From contig OY282386.1 of NCBI GenBank assembly GCA_958295945.1, positions 5,016,204-5,080,203 on the forward strand: a DNA stretch of 64,000 bases, written 5' to 3'. Source of the DNA: Candidatus Poribacteria bacterium. GTDB lineage: Bacteria > Poribacteria > WGA-4E > WGA-3G. Position numbers and translations under genes: made by a program. Numbering within the stretch: position 1 is the stretch's first letter; every line of letters starts with the position of its first letter. Positions 53,704-63,727 of this stretch are shown here, piece after piece. The notes beneath the pieces are model-generated. The model made no database searches and was not told the origin of the DNA. It was given only the letters and a program-made list of their open reading frames with translations.

Positions 53704-54579
53704 TTACCCTGTGATAGCATACGCAACAACATTCATCCCTTGCTCAAATGCCCAAGTTCGTTGCTCCATTCCACCTGGATCACATGGTCTTCCCTCCCAA
53801 GCACAATTCATATCATTGGGGCAGAAGTAGACCATTACCCTATCTTCATCCATGATTGCCTGATCATATTCATAACCCCGAATTAGTTTATCTCCACCAA
53901 GATATTCGTTATGGTCGTAGAGTGTGTGATAGATTGAATGGCTGATGTCAAGCCGTTCAAACTTCTTTTCAGGATATATCCGTCTCATCATAATTTGGAT
54001 CTGGGGCCAAAAGTTTGCATATCGGATGTCACAATCTTCAACGTGGAGAAAACCCCCGCGTTCAAAGTATTCTCTCATCTTGCGTATATGTGTATCAGTG
54101 AGTCTCATCTGTGTGCGTCTGCCGTGACCTGTCATAAACATAAAAGGATAAGAATATAACCAGTCATCTTCAATGTCTACATATTGTGGGTGTCTACGCA
54201 AATTTACATTGATGGAAGTATTTTCTTCAAGGACCTGTGAGAACTTAAGATCAGATTTCCACCGATAATGATTTACGATATTCGTCCACCAATCACCACC
54301 AGGATATTTTAGACGGACGAAGGTGAACTTTTCACCTGTTGGATCCATTCCCGGATGATTATGTTCAATTATATCCCGAGTGCCGTATCTTGTAGAATAG
54401 TGAATATCCCGAGTAGCATCGTAAGGGATATATTCACCGAACTGTGACTGTGCATCAGCAGAGTTGAGTAATCCACCCGCAGCGACAGCAGAGGTAGCAA
54501 GTCCAATGGAACTCTTGATAAATGCACGACGCGAAAATGTGCGGATTGTTTTGTCTGTTTGATTTCGGTCAATTGACAT
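53704..54579 (-). CDS. DUF4159 domain protein with Tat signal
   Basis: A 291-residue protein exported folded via Tat: twin-arginine motif FSRRAFIKSS at ~15-24 and a hydrophobic stretch ending near SADA. The DUF4159 core is visible as FTFVRLKYPGGDWWTNIV, then YPFMFMTGHG, MREYFERGGFLHVEDCDIR and RIYPEKKFERLDISHSIY. DUF4159 is GATase-like in fold; role unknown. Members commonly sit next to VWA and MoxR-type genes; here a VWA gene lies two genes upstream. AGGAGGACA precedes the ATG. Confidence 0.88.
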   Translation of the reverse strand: MSIDRNQTDKTIRTFSRRAFIKSSIGLATSAVAAGGLLNSADAQSQFGEYIPYDATRDIHYSTRYGTRDIIEHNHPGMDPTGEKFTFVRLKYPGGDWWTNIVNHYRWKSDLKFSQVLEENTSINVNLRRHPQYVDIEDDWLYSYPFMFMTGHGRRTQMRLTDTHIRKMREYFERGGFLHVEDCDIRYANFWPQIQIMMRRIYPEKKFERLDISHSIYHTLYDHNEYLGGDKLIRGYEYDQAIMDEDRVMVYFCPNDMNCAWEGRPCDPGGMEQRTWAFEQGMNVVAYAITG

Positions 54580-54606
54580 GGCCTTGTCCTCCTAAAAATA
54601 TGTATG

Positions 54607-56214
54607 TTAATAAGGTTTACCCAACAATTCAAATGTAACGCTTTGTGCTGCACCACCTTGCATCTTCGTAGAAGTACGAGTACTTGCAATGGCACGAATT
54701 CTATGGTTTTTGATACCAGCATCTTTTAGTGCTTTGGCTGCTGCTTCTGCACGTTGTGTTGCAAGAAGTTTATTTGCAGTTGGGTCTCCCTCTTTGCGCG
54801 TGTGCCCAACAACTCTAAGATAATACTGTGGAAACGATTTCAGTTTTGTTGCAATATCTGTCAATGCGCGTTTGCTACCGGGTAGAATACGGGCATTACC
54901 ACGACCGAATTGAATCGGTTCAATTTTCATTGCAGCAACTGGTGCAAGTGTGGTCCAATTGTCATCTGATAGTGGATTCAATGCAACTTCTTCACGCACT
55001 TTTTCTTCAGCAACATTTGGTGTGTCAACAAGAATACCCTCTAAGCCACCTGCACCATTAGTGTTCAGCACACCCGGATGGAAGTCATCGGTGCGGAGTG
55101 AACGTAATATACCTTCAAAGAAAAGATTACCATAATTCCCTGAGAATGGGTCTGACGCAATAGATTTTGTTTTGACCAAGACTTGTATTATCTTTCCAAT
55201 CATCGTCTCAAGTTTCTCAGAATCTTTCGCTTTATTCCCAGAGATAATGCCAAAATGTGCGTAATTCTCAACAGTGTTTCGCCATTCTATTCCTTTTACT
55301 AACTGACTCGCTTCATTGCTGTTGAGTTTATCACCATATTGTTTTGCATCAGATTCAATCAAGGATAATAAGCCTTCTGATTGATTTGAATAGTCGTAGT
55401 TCGCACGGAGATACGCCTGTACTATATGTGTGACAAGTTCGCGTTGTGTGTCTAAAAACTCACGTTGAACGACTAATACATCAACGATATACCCTTTCAA
55501 TTTAGAACTATCTAAGAGCAGATGCACACCGTCAATTGCAAGTGCTTTGGTAACATAAGGCTCCCATAAAACATAGGCAGCAGGTTGACCTGGATCAGCA
55601 GACTTAAGTTTTTTATACACATCTTCTGCGCCGTTTGCATCGGATGCCCAAGATGTAGGCAGACTTGGAAGACTCATCGTATTAATCATAATCCGAGCGA
55701 GTGTTTCACTTGGCGAATCTGGTGTCAACACGATACGTGCCTTTGGATTGCTTAAGTTCGGTATGCTGGGTACGCCCCGCTTGTGTGCAACGATTGCATC
55801 AGCTCCTTTTGATTCATCTATGACGAGAACAATTGAACCGGGAAATTCACCGATAACACTACCCGCTTTAAGATATGCATCAATGGTAAAGACAGCCATT
55901 TGGACTTTACCACTTTTCAGATCGCGTGCTCTACGGACATAATCGGCTTTATCATCTACAAAGGTGAGTTTAATCGCCTGACGACCAAGCAGATTCTTCA
56001 CAGCATCAGATCGAAGTATAGCATAACCGGGAAAGGAGTCGTGTGCAACTTTAATCTCATGGTCATATTTCTGTGTGCCTGTGTTCTCAACAAGTTTCTC
56101 TCGTCTACTCCCAAGACGGGGTTCAACAACAAACTTGTAGACAAGTCCTAAAATACCGATGATAATCAGCCAACTTGCCACCATAACCATTCTGCTTTTT
56201 GTTTTGGCTTCCAT
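54607..56214 (-). CDS. Anchored substrate-binding (NMT1-like) / OmpA fusion protein
   Basis: A 535-residue protein with an N-terminal membrane anchor (MVMVASWLIIIGILGLVYKF). Residues ~50-340 form a periplasmic binding-protein-2 fold of the nitrate/sulfonate type (HEIKVAHDSFPGYAILRSDA, KVQMAVFTIDAYLKAGS, AYVLWEPYVTKAL). Residues ~425-530 are OmpA-like (LRVVGHTRKEGDPTANKLLA, TQRAEAAAKALKDAG), expected to bind peptidoglycan. Binding-protein and OmpA domains on one chain are uncommon. Transcribed with the VWA and second fusion genes. Confidence 0.83.
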   Translation of the reverse strand: MEAKTKSRMVMVASWLIIIGILGLVYKFVVEPRLGSRREKLVENTGTQKYDHEIKVAHDSFPGYAILRSDAVKNLLGRQAIKLTFVDDKADYVRRARDLKSGKVQMAVFTIDAYLKAGSVIGEFPGSIVLVIDESKGADAIVAHKRGVPSIPNLSNPKARIVLTPDSPSETLARIMINTMSLPSLPTSWASDANGAEDVYKKLKSADPGQPAAYVLWEPYVTKALAIDGVHLLLDSSKLKGYIVDVLVVQREFLDTQRELVTHIVQAYLRANYDYSNQSEGLLSLIESDAKQYGDKLNSNEASQLVKGIEWRNTVENYAHFGIISGNKAKDSEKLETMIGKIIQVLVKTKSIASDPFSGNYGNLFFEGILRSLRTDDFHPGVLNTNGAGGLEGILVDTPNVAEEKVREEVALNPLSDDNWTTLAPVAAMKIEPIQFGRGNARILPGSKRALTDIATKLKSFPQYYLRVVGHTRKEGDPTANKLLATQRAEAAAKALKDAGIKNHRIRAIASTRTSTKMQGGAAQSVTFELLGKPY

Positions 56215-56256
56215 GTCTATATTCCTTATCGCATTCTAAGTTGTAATGATCGCCTG

Positions 56257-57183
56257 CTATTTTCCCATACGTCGAAAAATTATAAATCCACCAATAGCGA
56301 CTATAAGACCTATTAGAATCCAGAAATTGTAATTACCACCGCTTTGTTGGTCAGGTTGCTGTATCGGTTGTTGAGGTGTTTGTGTTGACGGTTTTTGCTG
56401 ATCCGTTGGTGTTTTTCTTACATTAGTCGTAGCGATTGCAGTATTACTTGGTGGCATTGTAATCCGTTGAATAAGGTCCATAGCAATTTTTTCTGAGAGA
56501 GGTGCGATGTCTTCATAAGCATCTTCTCCATCAAGGTCCGTACCAGTTCCCCCCGTTTCGGCAAGGATCTCCGTTACTGCTGCAACGAGTTCACCCGGGT
56601 TGTCTGCTCTACGATAACTATCAGCATCTTTTGCCAATAGATGATCGGTCTGCATATCAACACCTATCACATCAACACGAATCTGTCTGTCCAGAATTTC
56701 GGGTGTATATTGGGCAACTTTTTCCTCGTCTTGTGCCCTACCGTCTGTAACAATCAACAACCGATAATTTCCATAGTTATACTGTTTTTCTCTCTGTTCA
56801 AGCAGTCTGTTCGTCCCGATACGCATGTATTTTCCCAGTGGAGTGCCGCCACCTGGTTGTGGTAATTCAATCGCCGCTAACAGTTGCTCAGTATTCTTCG
56901 GTCCAAGTGGATATACCCAATCATTCTGGACGTTACTTCCGCTGAAGACAAGCAAACCGATATGGGTATTTTCTGGAACTTTAGATAGGACTTCCTTAAG
57001 TGCTTCTTTAGCAGCGTCCATCTTTGACTTTGATTGATCTGCACGAAACTTCTCATTCATTGAACCGGATGCATCAAGAATAATGATAATATTGTCGGTA
57101 TGAAGGTCAGATTCCCCATTACCTATCTGAACTATAGTGAATACCGAGAGACCAATAAGACACGATACGATGAAATGTTTCAC
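56257..57183 (-). CDS. VWA domain protein with C-terminal membrane anchor
   Basis: A 308-residue protein with a signal peptide (cleavage near GNGES), a von Willebrand A domain with intact MIDAS (IIIILDASGSMNEKF, then GGTPLGKYM and LLIVTDGRAQDE), a Gln/Thr/Pro-rich linker and one C-terminal membrane segment (FWILIGLIVAIGGFIIFRRM). It is oriented with the VWA domain outside. VWA domains bind protein ligands; the adjacent binding-protein/OmpA fusions are candidate partners. Confidence 0.88.
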   Translation of the reverse strand: MKHFIVSCLIGLSVFTIVQIGNGESDLHTDNIIIILDASGSMNEKFRADQSKSKMDAAKEALKEVLSKVPENTHIGLLVFSGSNVQNDWVYPLGPKNTEQLLAAIELPQPGGGTPLGKYMRIGTNRLLEQREKQYNYGNYRLLIVTDGRAQDEEKVAQYTPEILDRQIRVDVIGVDMQTDHLLAKDADSYRRADNPGELVAAVTEILAETGGTGTDLDGEDAYEDIAPLSEKIAMDLIQRITMPPSNTAIATTNVRKTPTDQQKPSTQTPQQPIQQPDQQSGGNYNFWILIGLIVAIGGFIIFRRMGK

Positions 57184-57205
57184 AATCGGCTCCTATATGA
57201 AAGGA

Positions 57206-59095
57206 CTAAAAGTCGAAATCGGATACGGCGACTGCTTCTGCTGACACTTTGATAAGTGCGAATTCAACACGTCTGTTTTCTGCAGCCTCTGCGGGACTTG
57301 TCGGTTTGGCAATAACAGGTTCTTTAATTCCTACACCAACAGGAACAATTTGATCTGTATCAATTCGTGCATTTTTACTACGTGCATAATCAATGATAGA
57401 TTGTTTCACCGCTTCTCCACGTTGTTCGGAAAGTTTGAGAGCAGCTCGCATAACTTGGAATGGATTTTCAACATCACTACTATCGTCAAATTTTCGTTGA
57501 TCGATGAGACGGATCAATTCAGTAGTATTTTCAAGACTAAAGGGTTTACCGTTCAAGAAATATTTATAACTGCCACGCGTTCCTGTCCGTTTCAGAAATC
57601 CTTTGGACAAACCGGTTCTTACCAGAATGCTCAAAGTTCTTGATGGGTCGCTGTGTCCTTTGATTGCAATTGCAGCATTTCCATATTTTGAAGCCAATTC
57701 AACAACTCTGTCAAATTCAGCACTATACCGAGATGCGCTAAATGTGTCCTGATTCGCATCAAATTGGATAGTAAAGGAGATTAATGTTTTTTCATCCAGA
57801 ACAGCATCCTCATTGAATGATTCAATCTCTGCCCGAACAGTTTCTTTCTTAAAGCGCGTCTTCTTTAGTTGTGTCGGAGCATCAACAGTTGTCGCAAGCA
57901 GACTCTTGAAAGCATTGGAATTGAAATTTAGGTCTGATGGCAGTAAGGCATGTTTCTGACTTGCAAAACCCCAGTTAACTGCCATATCCAATCCTGCTTT
58001 ATTGAATCCTTCGAATCCCGAGATAGTATTGCTTGGATCGTTGAAAAATGCAACATTACCGGGTTGACCAACAAATGTGCAATCAGCGATTAATCCATGT
58101 GCATCCTCTTCAAGTGTTGGTAACACATCTTTTCCATAGACATTCTGCATCATTATAAGTAGTTTGTTGTATTGTGTAGAACCACTTCTTTCATAAGCTT
58201 TCTTAAGTGAAATGACCTCTTCTGCCCCTTTCAGATAACCTGCAAAGAATCTTTCAATAAAAGGTTTATATTTATCATAGAAATCCTTCCGACATGCGTA
58301 GACATCTGCGATTGAACGCGATAGAGTAGCAGTACTAACAACAACGCGTGCTCTTTTTACAGTGCCTTCTGCACCTGTGCCGGTATTCTCAGGTCCCCCT
58401 GTTAGTCCAATCATATCTGGGGTAATAACAAAACAACCTGCGATAGAAGCATCATTTCGGAATTTTTCTGCCGGACCTTTTGCTCCAGTTAATTCTTCTA
58501 CCCAGACTAACTGAACATTGGATTTAGAGAGACGTGCAGTTTTCAACATATCATAAAGCATCCCAACATGAGGTCCACCCTTCTGAATAGCAATCTTTTT
58601 CCCGTTAAGATCCGATATTTTGCGGATATTTGACCGTCCGACAAAATGGTCACCTGCCGACCATGTTAGTTGTCCAAACACGACAGGTTTTGTGTTGGGA
58701 TCACGGCCAATGACTTCGCTTGCTTGCGCGATCATTCTAAACGTGCCCCGTAGTATCGGTGTCTTCCCAGAGAGATAGTCACGAACTTGTTGCTGAAAAT
58801 TATCGCCAGGAACCAGTTCTAGGTTGAGTCCTTGTTTCTCCATGATTGTGCCGGGTTTCGTTTTCAATCCTCCATTTGCATGGAATAGTGCAGCTTCACC
58901 ACCCCATGTAATATAAGGCACGACTAAAGGAGAAATTGAAGTAACTTCACGTGCGGTAACTTGACCAACTGCATCAGCAAAACGTTCCTGCGCGTTTGCT
59001 GAAAACATAAAGCAAAGAAGCATCAGACAAATTAGATTATATTTCAAGAATTGGTGTAATACTTTGCTGCTACAGAATATTGGATGCTTTTTCAT
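57206..59095 (-). CDS. Exported substrate-binding / OmpA fusion protein
   Basis: A 629-residue exported protein (signal LICLMLLCFMFSANAQ). Residues ~35-390 form a binding-protein fold (VPYITWGGEAALFHANGGL, DLNGKKIAIQKGGPHVGML, FRNDASIAGCFVITPDM). The C-terminal ~200 residues are OmpA-like (FTIQFDANQDTFSASRY, AIAIKGHSDPSR, then LSEQRGEAVKQSI and AENRRVEFALIKV). The OmpA domain carries an insertion of about 60 residues between the GHSDP strand and the LSEQRGE helix. Same layout as the protein at 54607 but with little sequence similarity. Confidence 0.85.
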   Translation of the reverse strand: MKKHPIFCSSKVLHQFLKYNLICLMLLCFMFSANAQERFADAVGQVTAREVTSISPLVVPYITWGGEAALFHANGGLKTKPGTIMEKQGLNLELVPGDNFQQQVRDYLSGKTPILRGTFRMIAQASEVIGRDPNTKPVVFGQLTWSAGDHFVGRSNIRKISDLNGKKIAIQKGGPHVGMLYDMLKTARLSKSNVQLVWVEELTGAKGPAEKFRNDASIAGCFVITPDMIGLTGGPENTGTGAEGTVKRARVVVSTATLSRSIADVYACRKDFYDKYKPFIERFFAGYLKGAEEVISLKKAYERSGSTQYNKLLIMMQNVYGKDVLPTLEEDAHGLIADCTFVGQPGNVAFFNDPSNTISGFEGFNKAGLDMAVNWGFASQKHALLPSDLNFNSNAFKSLLATTVDAPTQLKKTRFKKETVRAEIESFNEDAVLDEKTLISFTIQFDANQDTFSASRYSAEFDRVVELASKYGNAAIAIKGHSDPSRTLSILVRTGLSKGFLKRTGTRGSYKYFLNGKPFSLENTTELIRLIDQRKFDDSSDVENPFQVMRAALKLSEQRGEAVKQSIIDYARSKNARIDTDQIVPVGVGIKEPVIAKPTSPAEAAENRRVEFALIKVSAEAVAVSDFDF

Positions 59096-59213
59096 GTCTC
59101 TTTCCTCTTTTTGAGTTACACATTTTTATATTTGTTCACGTCAATGGTATTCTAACATATAAATTAGATTATTACCACAAAATTAATATAAAATAAAATG
59201 GTTGGAAAATCAC

Positions 59214-60752
59214 CTAACGTGAATGTTCAGGTTTACTTGGGAATATTAAGATTGCATCTGAAACAGGACGACCCTGGAACTTTGGCAAAGGACGAATACG
59301 ACGGTTACCACGAGCAGACATCGTTCTCCTATCTATTGCCGTCTTTTCTTCAACAGGTTTGTTTGGAGTATCAGGTTCTGTCTTTTTAGCATCTGTCTTT
59401 TTAGCATCTGTCTTTTTAGCATCTGTCTTTTTAGCATCTGTCTTTTTAGCATCCGTTGTTTCTTTGGCTATGACATCTACTTGTTTGTCTGGTTTCTTTA
59501 CTATTTCTTTTTTGTCTGTTTGTTTTTCTGTATTATCAGGTTTCTGCTTATCCTCTGAGTCTGGACGGGGAGGTGGTTTACGTTTTACACTTACTACTTT
59601 ATCTCTTATAATCATCATGGACGAAGAACCGCCATCTAAATTGACAGCATCGGTTGCACCCCATTTCTGAAATAGGTTTGCAAGTTTATGTAACATGACA
59701 CCACGCCGCACTTTCGGATCAGCACCAGTGATTGTAACAAAAAGTAATGTGCCATCTACCTTTTTACCAACTGCAGTGCGGGGATGCCAGAAACTGTGAA
59801 ATGATGGACCAAAACCTTCTTGTTGATAGATTTCAGATGTAGATTTACTTCCATTCTTCAGTAACAGAGGACCTCCACCGATTATATGTGAAAGACTTTC
59901 CCACAGATGGCTATCTCCCACACTTTCAGGTATTACTTTCTCTTGGATTTCAACCTTTGCATCAATAGCAATATGCTCAAGTAGTAATTTACGTTTCCTG
60001 CCATTTGAAGATAAGACATATCCATCACTTGGAATTCGGGAACTTCCCTGCCTATCATATATGTCAACTATTCTGTCATTTCTTACAACCACTTCAAGAC
60101 CATCAGGATTCGTCAATGTGTTGGCGTGAAAGCCGGGACGATACAGCACCAATTCGTTCTTTATCCGCACACGATTGATTCCATCAATTTCCAAACTTAC
60201 ACTATTTGAGAAGACTATCTCATGTTGAAGTAGAATACGGTCAAAATAAGTCTCAATCTTCCCATTGACAGTTCTGAAACCGACAACCCCGCGCCCTTGT
60301 TCTGGTTCACTTACCCATTCACCATCAATTTTTAATGCACCGACAGATTCACCTTGATAAGTTCCTGCCATCTCATAAAAACCACCATTAATAGCAATTG
60401 GTGCTTTTTTACGTTGTGCAATTGACTGCAAATGCTCTGAACCAATTCCTGCACCAAGGGCACGATATAGACGGATGTCTACGGCATCAGGTTTCACTGA
60501 AAGAATGTTTGTCAGAACTCCATCGTCCAATATCTGACGATGAACAATCCCTGGAAACACCTGCTCTGTTTCATCGCTAAAGACAGGATCGGTATAAGAT
60601 TTTACATAGGCGGGTACTTTTTTTAGTGGTACAACTTTGCCTACCCAAACACCTATTCCGAAAAAAATCAGAAAACCGATTGTCGTCCATGTGCGTGGAT
60701 AGCGTTTGATGAATCGGACAAATCTTCGTCCTAAATAGATAATATCAAACAT
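59214..60752 (-). CDS. Phosphodiester glycosidase (NAGPA)-like anchored protein
   Basis: A 512-residue protein with an N-terminal membrane anchor (TTIGFLIFFGIGVWVGKVV). Residues ~60-390 match the NAGPA/exopolysaccharide-type phosphodiester glycosidase family: KKAPIAINGGFYEMAG, ALKIDGEWV, SHIIGGGPLLLKNG, RTAVGKKVDGTLLFV and DAVNLDGGSSSMMI. The C-terminal ~110 residues are Lys/Asp/Pro-rich and disordered, with five tandem KKTDA repeats. Likely acts on a polysaccharide or envelope glycan; substrate unknown. Last member of the cluster on its upstream side. Confidence 0.85.
   Translation of the reverse strand: MFDIIYLGRRFVRFIKRYPRTWTTIGFLIFFGIGVWVGKVVPLKKVPAYVKSYTDPVFSDETEQVFPGIVHRQILDDGVLTNILSVKPDAVDIRLYRALGAGIGSEHLQSIAQRKKAPIAINGGFYEMAGTYQGESVGALKIDGEWVSEPEQGRGVVGFRTVNGKIETYFDRILLQHEIVFSNSVSLEIDGINRVRIKNELVLYRPGFHANTLTNPDGLEVVVRNDRIVDIYDRQGSSRIPSDGYVLSSNGRKRKLLLEHIAIDAKVEIQEKVIPESVGDSHLWESLSHIIGGGPLLLKNGSKSTSEIYQQEGFGPSFHSFWHPRTAVGKKVDGTLLFVTITGADPKVRRGVMLHKLANLFQKWGATDAVNLDGGSSSMMIIRDKVVSVKRKPPPRPDSEDKQKPDNTEKQTDKKEIVKKPDKQVDVIAKETTDAKKTDAKKTDAKKTDAKKTDAKKTEPDTPNKPVEEKTAIDRRTMSARGNRRIRPLPKFQGRPVSDAILIFPSKPEHSR
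59377..59451. repeat. Five tandem 15-bp repeats coding KKTDA
   Basis: TCTGTCTTTTTAGCA occurs five times in perfect tandem inside the phosphodiester glycosidase-like gene, coding repeated Lys-Lys-Thr-Asp-Ala on the minus strand. Copy number is likely to vary. Confidence 0.9.
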
Positions 60753-62489: not shown

Positions 62490-63727
62490 CTATGCTATGG
62501 AATAAACACCGCGTTTTACTCTGACAATTTCGCCTTTATCTATGAGGCGTTTGAGTTCGTTTTTCACTGCTTCAGGATTTCCTTGAATTGCACTGATAAA
62601 ATCAGCAGTCTTTTTGTTTCCATTCTCAAGAAGATTTAGAATTTGTATTCGGTAAGGGACACGTAGAGGTGCACCACCCCTTAGCTTTTGTAAAATACGG
62701 TTTGCCTGTCTTGAGGAACATCCATAAACTTCTTCAACTTTATCTCTACTGGATTTGGCTGTAAGACTGTCTCTCTCTTTTTCAAAGTCTTTTCGTTTCG
62801 CAACCACTTCCGGCAATTTGTCAAGTCCACCAGCAATTACGAAATCTTCCCAATCAAAATGGACGGTTCAGTTCTATCTGATATTCCAGATAAATATATG
62901 CCAGTGAGTAATACAACTGTCTTACCTTTCGATCTGTTGAATGTATTACAGTTAAGCATCGGTCTTAGTAGAACATCTATGTTTTGTAAACGCTCATCCG
63001 TATATAGACAGAGAGCTTTATCCTTTTCATAATTAAGCGGTGCATCATCGTTGCCGTATATTATCTGTCCCTGTCGCCATATAGTACCCTGTGGTGGTTC
63101 AGGAGCTCCGACAATCCAAATCACTTGTACTTTTTCAAGAATAGAGTCCAAATTATCCATATTATCAGAAAACTTTATTAAATGGACATTGTCTCTCTTG
63201 ACGATTTCAGATAGTTGTTTGATCCCTGCGACATAGGTGATAACTGCATGAGCAACATTCTCATCTTTTTCAATTTCACCTATAATACCCTTGTAAAAAT
63301 TTATACCTATTTTACTTATGCCAATTACATCCCAGTTCCTGTCATAATCTAAAATCATTTCTCGTGGATAGATTCCTGTCTGAATTTGAAAGATTTTGTT
63401 TTCTTTGTGCCACGAAGGTAGTTCTAAATGTGCTACTTTAACCTCCTCATCAGGAAATGCTCGATTCAGATGTTGTTCGTAGAGTGTTGTAGATTTAATG
63501 AAGAGTTGCTTAACATTTGGATGTAAAATTGGTGGAATCCAGAACTTAAGCACTTTCTTGTCCCATCTCACGCGTGCATCCTCATCTCGTGTGTAATGCT
63601 CAAAGAACCTTTTGAGTTGATGCCAAACTGTCCAATTGGAATTAGTGCATACAGTCTGAATATTCTGAATGTCAGTCACATTTTCAATTTTGAATATACA
63701 CAATTGGGTGTGTAAAGTTTTTGTCAC
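62490..63727 (-). pseudogene. Frameshifted and IS-truncated gene with C-terminal winged-helix region
   Basis: Two open frames are parts of one gene. The first (to 62837) ends ...SGISDRTEPS then ILIGKIS. In another frame the sequence continues HFDWEDFVIAGGLDKLPEVV into the second frame (62816-62490). The shift lies at about 62855-62865. The C-terminal part has two helix-turn-helix-like pieces (VYGCSSRQANRILQKL, RIQILNLLENGNKKTADFIS) and ends RVKRGVYSIA. The apparent start is a GTG inside the IS terminal repeat, so the true N-terminus was removed by the insertion at 63706. I do not recognise the family; a DNA-binding replication-type protein is possible. Confidence 0.7.

Follow-up and report, generated by a model that had tools for sequence, protein, structure and literature searches.

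In the genome of Candidatus Poribacteria, a sponge-associated bacterium, only three genes of the locus belong together as a unit: two that encode fusions of a binding protein with an OmpA-like domain (SBP1/OmpA and SBP2/OmpA), and one that encodes a VWA protein. With a probability of roughly one half, this triad makes up the outer half of an envelope complex, in which PspA and an AAA ATPase would be among the partners on the inner side, and the paired fusions would serve, within the family of the genome, as a sensor or an anchor. The locus lies in a window of 64,000 nucleotides (contig OY282386.1, positions 5,016,204 to 5,080,203). An envelope sensing or assembly system, as suggested in a preliminary description of this DNA, is still the best reading, and the core is strongly conserved; the five-gene membership and the epithet "undescribed" that came with the suggestion did not hold.

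Proteins of the triad

The five open reading frames originally assigned to the locus are real, all lie on the minus strand, and the VWA gene does occupy a position between the two fusions. SBP1/OmpA (57206..59095, minus strand) consists of a weak hydrophobic stretch at the N-terminus, an exported binding domain of the NMT1/SsuA type, and an OmpA-like domain with an insert; SBP2/OmpA (54607..56214, minus strand) carries an N-terminal TM anchor at residues 6-34, a binding domain and an OmpA-like domain. The proposed order of a binding-protein fold followed by an OmpA-like domain is supported in both by Pfam matches (NMT1, 2e-6, and a weak OmpA match in SBP1; OmpA, 6e-12, and a weak NMT1_2 match in SBP2), and a TIGR03427 match (1.6e-7) relates the binding domain of SBP2 to the "putative urea" family of ABC SBPs. 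The VWA protein (56257..57183, minus strand; Pfam VWA, 4e-14) displays an N-terminal hydrophobic stretch that resembles an export signal, and a TM segment at residues 283-307 that agrees with the C-terminal anchoring first proposed. Its MIDAS motif is intact (DASGS...TPLG...TDG), and the DxSGS and TDG elements are present in all 13 VWA proteins examined. Scanning for promoters and terminators gave no useful signal, with 36 promoter-like sites where 23.7 were expected (sd 4.7) and 8 terminator-like sites where 6.5 were expected.

The two fusions had been considered unrelated-looking, a view that is ruled out by an alignment running collinearly through both domains (hhalign 96.3% over 440 columns, 98.8% with enlarged alignments), for which shuffled or reversed controls reached at most 0.5%; judged by their sequences, SBP1/OmpA and SBP2/OmpA are paralogues.

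Both OmpA domains match peptidoglycan-binding structures (5wtp for SBP2, 1.7e-19; 3td3 for SBP1, 1.5e-6), which would suit a purely mechanical tether, in which the OmpA domains and VWA fasten the inner membrane to peptidoglycan and the SBP folds are ligand-free structural relics. The tether is also favored by the retention in SBP1, in 13 of 13 sequences, of the Asp that OmpA domains able to bind peptidoglycan carry in their GH[STA]D motif. The diaminopimelate site of such domains comprises a conserved Asp and a conserved Arg, and the Arg is kept in 7/7 sequences of alignment A2. The Asp, however, is kept in one and lost from eight of the nine SBP2 sequences with a motif match (13 examined), being replaced by Arg in the window protein, and because of this absence peptidoglycan binding by SBP2 appears doubtful. 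Also at odds with relic SBP folds is the conservation of SBP1, which is high within the family (82-92%) for the protein as a whole, SBP domain included, and the tether is thus rather improbable.

Module membership

The triad is present in 26 of the 58 genomes of the phylum, and its conservation extends far beyond a single strain, so that one of the refuting outcomes named in the preliminary description did not occur. SBP1 is followed by VWA in 33 of 34 genome_contigs loci, the remaining one ending at SBP1, and SBP2 is located after VWA in 32 of the 34. The family of the window genome (f1) comprises 42 genomes, of which 25 are triad-positive and 17 triad-negative.

The preliminary description also placed in the cluster a DUF4159 protein (53704..54579, minus strand; Pfam DUF4159, 1.5e-34), whose supposed Tat export is in line with a twin-arginine motif spotted by eye, and a phosphodiester glycosidase-like NAGPA protein (59214..60752, minus strand; Pfam NAGPA, 1e-29). 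That these two and the triad work as one five-gene unit could be argued from their shared strand, from the gaps of only 22-118 bases between them in the window genome, and from the occurrence of all five genes in 25/25 triad-positive family genomes. Nevertheless, DUF4159 also occurs in 14 and NAGPA in 13 of the 17 triad-negative genomes, nine of the ten triad-negative loci fetched have NAGPA directly followed by DUF4159 and a flavoprotein gene, with no triad, and the side of the triad occupied by DUF4159 varies with genus. Both genes thus belong to the backbone and are adjacent even where the triad is missing; the five-gene unit is largely refuted and retains very little probability. The possibility that the triad is a prophage remnant was likewise rejected, as triad-negative genomes retain the genes that flank it (purB, NAGPA, DUF4159 and the flavoprotein gene).

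Unlinked partners of the triad

The genes that do co-vary with the triad are not DUF4159 and NAGPA, but those of a two-TM helical protein (CC-TM) and of a 602-residue protein (U602), both of which adjoin genes for PspA/ESCRT-III-like proteins and an AAA ATPase. Across the 42 genomes of the family, U602 was detected in 25/25 triad-positive and 0/17 triad-negative genomes, and CC-TM in 24/25 and 0/17, respectively. On a tree of the AAA gene the triad trait changes state seven times within the family, and all six supported independent pairs are concordant (sign test p 0.031, for six pairs on a quick single-gene tree). PspA2 and AAA are found in nearly all family genomes, triad-positive or triad-negative alike, and can therefore do without the triad. 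PspA is grouped, in the window genome, with CC-TM, U602 and AAA at a distance from the triad, CC-TM and U602 being located near 1.74 Mb and the triad at 5.07 Mb, and the two halves are unlinked in the genus too. Both points weigh against the envelope complex.

CC-TM possesses two TM stretches, is predicted to be all-helical, and comes directly after SBP2 in g2 and L056. With enlarged alignments it matches the protein that occupies the same slot in a TelA version of the operon (hhalign 93.5%; shuffles 0.1%), while a two-sequence alignment with the Vibrio protein yielded only 16%; similarity between CC-TM and PspA was undetectable (hhalign 1.1%). Its structure model (pLDDT 54) was too poor for use, and an apparent fusion of CC-TM in G045 (an 880-residue frame) was dropped, since L052 has a 270-residue frame at the corresponding place. 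U602 has no known Pfam family and no usable match among PDB sequences, nor did its AlphaFold2 model (pLDDT 70, pTM 0.66) give a usable match among PDB folds, the best being a Foldseek hit with E 0.53 and VIA with Z 8.2 across 60 helical residues. The AAA protein contains a single Walker A (residue 370) and a single Walker B, both in its C-terminal half, to which the N-terminal half shows a weak match (hhalign 20%, with no more than 1.0% in any of five shuffles).

Relatives and the ABC importer

The absence of an ABC permease and ATPase among the five window genes had been read as evidence against simple uptake. The absence holds here and in the family of the window, where a permease orthologue was found in 0/42 genomes (best matches 19-24% identity), and the reading may stand for this lineage only. 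Neither can be extended to the relatives, in which a permease, named in the preliminary description as a refuting finding, does lie beside or near the triad: in G023, in two Vibrio plasmids, in five distinct IMG/VR contigs (L145, L147, L149, L151 and L152; L148 resembles L147) and in a 595-kb phage. Because these operons hold a complete ABC importer, a derived loss is the simplest account of the permease-less state.

The same relatives link the triad to its partners. In L056, the triad, CC-TM, PspA (Pfam 7.6e-9) and AAA (Pfam 1.2e-11) are contiguous; L147, L149 and L152 display the order SBP1-VWA-SBP2-CC-TM-PspA-SBP-permease-ATPase, with AAA further along, and LR756511.1 follows the L147 type, including PspA, permease and ATPase, without AAA in the stretch fetched. 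Together with G023, these are the cases in which PspA lies near the triad or CC-TM. The 595-kb phage holds the PspA version of the gene set, and SBP/OmpA, permease and ATPase genes occur in phage G, Lak phages and a 735-kb phage. In a second version, TelA takes the place of PspA (the Vibrio plasmids and one IMG/VR contig); TelA (PF05816) occurs in none of the 42 family genomes, exceeds the cut-off in one of the 58 phylum genomes (G001), on a contig with no SBP/OmpA, and had no match in the phage collection. The window SBP1, SBP2 and VWA match their Vibrio homologues at 27-34%, and the Poribacteria SBP1 copies form a separate clade.

These arrangements call for consideration of high-affinity uptake, in which SBPs held on peptidoglycan would pass a taurine-, urea- or nitrate-like solute to an ABC permease encoded elsewhere in the genome. 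The UCA/TauC-type permease and ATPase that adjoin the triad or its relatives in Vibrio plasmids, G023, IMG/VR contigs and phages would fit this, as would the retention by SBP2 of 23 of the 64 columns invariant among four ABC SBPs of that family. Yet family genomes offer only the generic permease matches cited above, and VWA, CC-TM and PspA/TelA are not known as components of ordinary importers; uptake is unlikely.

The distribution of the cassette could also evoke a mobile anti-phage or superinfection-exclusion device: it is patchy, its state changes repeatedly inside one family, a clean empty site exists at nine loci, copies occur in LR756511.1, and SBP/OmpA-ABC relatives are present in phage G, Lak and 735-kb phages; moreover, membrane and surface proteins of huge phages may alter susceptibility to other phages, as noted by Al-Shayeb 2020 (PMC7162821). 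On the other hand, no effector, nuclease or toxin domains were seen, the cassette is confined to one chromosomal locus, and the Poribacteria SBP1 copies stand apart as a clade, all of which makes such a device quite improbable.

Comparison with known systems

The designation "undescribed" was too strong, in that operons with PspA, AAA, ABC ATPase, permease and PBPB-OmpA have been briefly described by Ravi et al. 2024 (PMC11237479), where the ABC ATPase and permease "may occur", the AAA+ protein comprises two AAA domains, of which the N-terminal is inactive, and a Snf7/ESCRT-III homologue carries a TM. The binding-protein/OmpA fusion of those operons is found in the window proteins; the ABC permease/ATPase is likewise present, here in relatives. 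Further likely resemblances are the PspA homologue and an AAA ATPase in which a single Walker site is intact and the first half may be degenerate. Unlike those operons, the present set has a VWA flanked by two SBP/OmpA paralogues and, in the family of the window, no importer, two split loci and a co-varying U602. A text search of the main article (PMC11237479) returned no mention of von Willebrand, TelA or Poribacteria, and the VWA pairing, the TelA version, the permease-less form and the phage copies were not found in it, supplements aside. It was the only report of the PspA/AAA/ABC/PBPB-OmpA linkage found in a literature search that covered few subscription journals.

The TelA ("toxic anion resistance") sets of Vibrio plasmids pSEA2 and pIFO15642 likewise follow the order SBP1-VWA-SBP2-CC-TM-like, with a UCA-type SBP, permease and ATPase besides, so that a triad followed by a two-TM helical protein is shared by homology, although CC-TM is unlinked in the window genome. 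They differ in having TelA in place of PspA/AAA and in a VWA that, by eye, is lipoprotein-like rather than TM-anchored. FtsZl1/VWA/OmpA neighborhoods, as outlined by Makarova and Koonin 2010 (PMC2875224), also combine VWA with OmpA-domain proteins, with a predicted role in membrane remodeling, but have at their center an FtsZ-like protein together with a GTPase, neither of which was noticed, without a specific search, beside the triad. The superfamily of TauABC/SsuABC/UCA-type ABC importers (TIGR03427, PF09084, PF13379) includes the window SBP domains, which differ in being fused to OmpA and, in the family, in belonging to a triad with neither permease nor ATPase. In phage G (gp243, gp245, gp249, gp250), Lak and the 735-kb phage, SBP/OmpA fusions similarly accompany a UCA-type permease and ATPase, while VWA, CC-TM and PspA were not adjacent to the huge-phage SBP/OmpA genes in the stretches read, LR756511.1 excepted.

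Possible mechanism and implications

PspA proteins are bacterial relatives of ESCRT-III, and how external signals reach them outside classical PspBC-type systems is poorly known. In the envelope complex favored here, SBP1/OmpA, VWA and SBP2/OmpA would form the periplasmic half, with SBP2 (through its N-terminal TM) and VWA (through its C-terminal TM) held in the inner membrane, SBP1 exported, and peptidoglycan within reach of the OmpA domains. A ligand or the state of the wall would be the input, and CC-TM, with its two TM stretches and helical domain, could relay the assembly state inward across the inner membrane and act, inside the cell, on the PspA polymer and its AAA ATPase, U602 being a putative lineage-specific adaptor on the inner side. 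Given the TauABC/UCA-type ABC importer of the relatives, the original task of the SBP domains was probably to bind the solute of that importer; in the Poribacteria family the importer would have been lost, leaving the SBP/OmpA pair to adjust membrane maintenance in the role of sensor or anchor. What the sequences establish is gene content, conservation, coupled inheritance, PspA and TelA as alternative partners, and the absence of the permease; the physical complex, its input, the direction of signaling, and loss of the importer rather than gain are inferred from these. Such a co-inherited, sensor-like periplasmic module with a defined transmembrane partner provides a testable route for signals to PspA.

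More tentatively, bacteria, plasmids and huge phages might share a modular envelope machine, in which paired, wall-reaching binding proteins and VWA would act through a two-TM helical subunit on interchangeable PspA/AAA or TelA effectors, with the ABC importer optional; the family would then possess an importer-less remodeling switch that senses ligand or wall, and in huge phages the machine could feed or stabilize the envelope of the infected cell. The gene set of the 595-kb phage and the SBP/OmpA-ABC core of phage G, Lak and 735-kb phages suggest that large phages manage host envelope or solute traffic during infection. Finally, the labels "phosphate/nitrate/urea ABC transporter substrate-binding" attached to SBP/OmpA fusions may mask another role.

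The window genes and the relationship of their binding proteins

Five minus-strand open reading frames (ORFs) lie where the preliminary description had placed them, and each of its assignments is backed by Pfam, with weak matches for two domains, the binding-protein (SBP) fold in SBP2 and the OmpA region in SBP1: NAGPA (60752-59214), SBP1/OmpA (59095-57206), VWA (57183-56257), SBP2/OmpA (56214-54607) and DUF4159 (54579-53704). The central three are referred to here as the triad. NCBIfam brings SBP1 to the SsuA family and SBP2 to TIGR03427, 'putative urea' ABC binding proteins, in both cases with scores far under the curated cut-off. Hydropathy predicts an N-terminal transmembrane (TM) anchor in SBP2 and, as had been proposed, a C-terminal one in VWA, whose metal site is intact (DASGS, TPLG, TDG), with DxSGS and TDG retained in all 13 homologues examined. 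That the triad is purely a tether appears quite unlikely. Near the C-terminus of NAGPA (window 59214-60752) are low-complexity lysine/threonine/aspartate repeats of KKTDA units, shortened or missing in homologues of g2, a genus of the window's Poribacteria family (f1); a short ORF at 62490-62816, immediately upstream of purB, has a weak Pfam match of the AbiEi-antitoxin type.

Judging from profile comparison, SBP1/OmpA and SBP2/OmpA are paralogues, and the earlier impression that they look unrelated is overturned: they are collinear across both domains (96.3%, 440 columns, versus at most 0.5% when either profile is reversed or, in five replicates, column-shuffled), the separate SBP and OmpA domains give 73% and 95%, and the full-length value rises to 98.8% with phage and plasmid homologues added (shuffles at most 3.2%). 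At one locus (L054:13819-14316) a partial extra SBP2 copy of 165 aa, 72% identical, lies immediately 3' of SBP2, and on a 359-kb contig (L145:7818-9571) SBP1 consists of two overlapping ORFs, through a frameshift or a true split.

Co-inheritance of the triad and its partners

Relatives in the genome-contig collection come without exception from Candidatus Poribacteria. VWA follows SBP1 in 33 of 34 loci, the remaining one ending at SBP1, and SBP2 is next in 32; these loci overlap with the phylum genomes and cannot be counted as a separate sample. Of the proposed five-gene cluster this order stands, but its two outer members do not belong: close DUF4159 relatives (at least 59%) and NAGPA (E <=1e-40) occur in 45 and 38 of 58 phylum genomes, including 14 and 13 of the 17 triad-negative f1 genomes. 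Where the locus was examined, in ten of these 17, NAGPA, DUF4159 and a convergent flavoprotein gene are consecutive in nine, the tenth (G041) having the latter two at a contig end with NAGPA missing; fragments of the triad, of CC-TM (a two-TM helical protein) and of U602 (a 602-aa protein) were found in none of the ten (E up to 1e-3). The triad is thus a clean cassette next to these genes, placed between NAGPA and DUF4159 in genus g1 and downstream of DUF4159 in g2.

The 58 phylum genomes were searched with nine proteins and one family. SBP1 is present in 26 (25 of the 42 in f1, and G023), as is SBP2 over most of its length (28% identity in G023), further matches to the SBP2 query being to the OmpA domain alone. 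CC-TM occurs in 24 genomes, every one a triad-positive f1 member; the only such member missing it is G002, in which the contig with U602 and AAA breaks off at 4.4 kb. U602, for which family and fold comparison gave no known family and no usable match, occurs in 25 genomes, which are precisely the triad-positive ones of f1; all 17 f1 genomes lacking the triad lack U602 too. In g2 the order SBP1-VWA-SBP2-CC-TM-U602 is found in one piece (L033), and in the 5.34-Mb single-contig genome holding the window (G000) the triad lies at 5.07 Mb, CC-TM, two PspA-like genes, U602 and an AAA ATPase forming a separate run at ~1.736-1.743 Mb. Absence is not merely a draft-genome artefact, because the single-contig genomes G019 and G037 are without the set and the single-contig G000, G045 and G047 have it. 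On a quick AAA tree of the 42 f1 genomes and G005, triad state changes seven times, and in 6/6 independent pairs on supported branches both U602 and CC-TM track the triad (two-sided p 0.031), giving modest support to co-inheritance beyond shared ancestry. The genome search gave an 880-aa open frame for CC-TM in G045:C1:321017-321781; the same place in L052 has 270 aa.

PspA, AAA and a possible mechanism

A close AAA homologue is kept in 42/42 f1 genomes and the ESCRT-III-like PspA2 in 41/42, triad present or not; these therefore represent a core, to which the triad module is accessory. In locus L056, triad, CC-TM, PspA (PF04012, 7.6e-9) and AAA (PF00004, 1.2e-11) are contiguous. A single Walker A/B pair lies in the C-terminal half of AAA, and the weak likeness of the two halves (20%, control at most 1%) would fit the pair of AAA domains, the N-terminal one inactive, that Ravi et al. 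describe. That work (PMC11237479) places PspA and TM-Snf7 together with AAA, an ABC ATPase, a permease and a PBPB-OmpA protein, proposing membrane remodelling tied to solute transport; term searches found no von Willebrand, TelA or Poribacteria there, and no transporter or OmpA in PMC6784885. The literature covered also takes in PMC2875224, PMC7162821, PMC9239133 and PMC11188069. In genus g1 (G009, G011, G012, G050, G051; also L062:10678-11433), two to five consecutive PspA-like matches, several with internal stops, look like a decaying array of PspA copies.

Alongside the observed gene content, co-inheritance and importer absence, the best-supported account, to which we give a probability of about one half, is a predicted assembly of two wall-reaching binding proteins and VWA, whose state CC-TM may relay to PspA and AAA; a physical complex, a ligand and this signal direction are what we infer.

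Relatives with a fuller gene set

The alternative that the triad is an uptake system draws on gene sets in which it accompanies an ABC-type importer. In G023, PspA, SBP2, an ABC SBP, permease, ATPase, a CC-TM-like gene (assigned from position and architecture, without a significant match) and AAA are followed some kilobases further by SBP1 and VWA. Six Vibrio plasmids carry SBP1 and SBP2 homologues (29-32%), the two examined having the order ATPase-SBP1-VWA-SBP2-257 aa-TelA-SBP-permease; PMC12791056 cites a 4-fold higher nisin susceptibility on telA disruption in Listeria. Scans of IMG/VR, the collection on which the viral status of these contigs rests, gave eight loci: L147 (which resembles L148), L149 and L152 read SBP1-VWA-SBP2-CC-TM-PspA-SBP-permease-ATPase with AAA downstream, L151 has TelA in place of PspA/AAA, L145 combines the triad with ABC genes and an ORF weakly resembling TelA, and also has matches to phage RNA ligase and endolysin, and two further loci, L146 and L150, are incomplete. 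The same-slot protein of the TelA version is a homologue of CC-TM (93.5%, shuffles 0.1%), which points to a single conserved core paired with PspA/AAA in one version and with TelA in the other, f1 being without the importer: its permease has no orthologue in the 42 f1 genomes, and uptake by the triad seems unlikely next to the wall-reaching assembly. The sole TelA above cut-off among the phylum genomes, in G001 (L089, G001:C151, 13 kb), adjoins a UCA-type SBP, permease and ATPase, SBP/OmpA and VWA being absent there; the same three lie upstream of a large carboxylase-like ORF in L090 (G055:C93), a contig of GC-rich look that may be contamination.

The 595-kb phage record LR756511.1 encodes SBP1 (46% to the window protein), VWA, SBP2 (38%), CC-TM, PspA (40%), SBP, permease and ATPase, with PHROGs matches for 6/10 ORFs scanned nearby (best 3.5e-100). 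Its SBP1 as query gave 18 records, among which 15 are Prevotella Lak phages. In phage G, two SBP/OmpA genes accompany a permease and an ATPase; two Lak stretches and a 735-kb phage stretch have SBP/OmpA, permease and ATPase, and neither VWA nor PspA was found in these three. Across the five huge phages (L153-L157: phage G, LR756511.1, Lak-A2, LR756501.1, Lak-B5) the SBP/OmpA fusions accompany a UCA/TauC-type ABC permease and ATPase, with VWA, CC-TM and PspA additionally in LR756511.1. A defence role for the triad is very improbable. In trees, SBP1 of Poribacteria groups as a separate clade, next to phage and IMG/VR copies of the PspA type; G023 SBP2 is set apart on a long branch.
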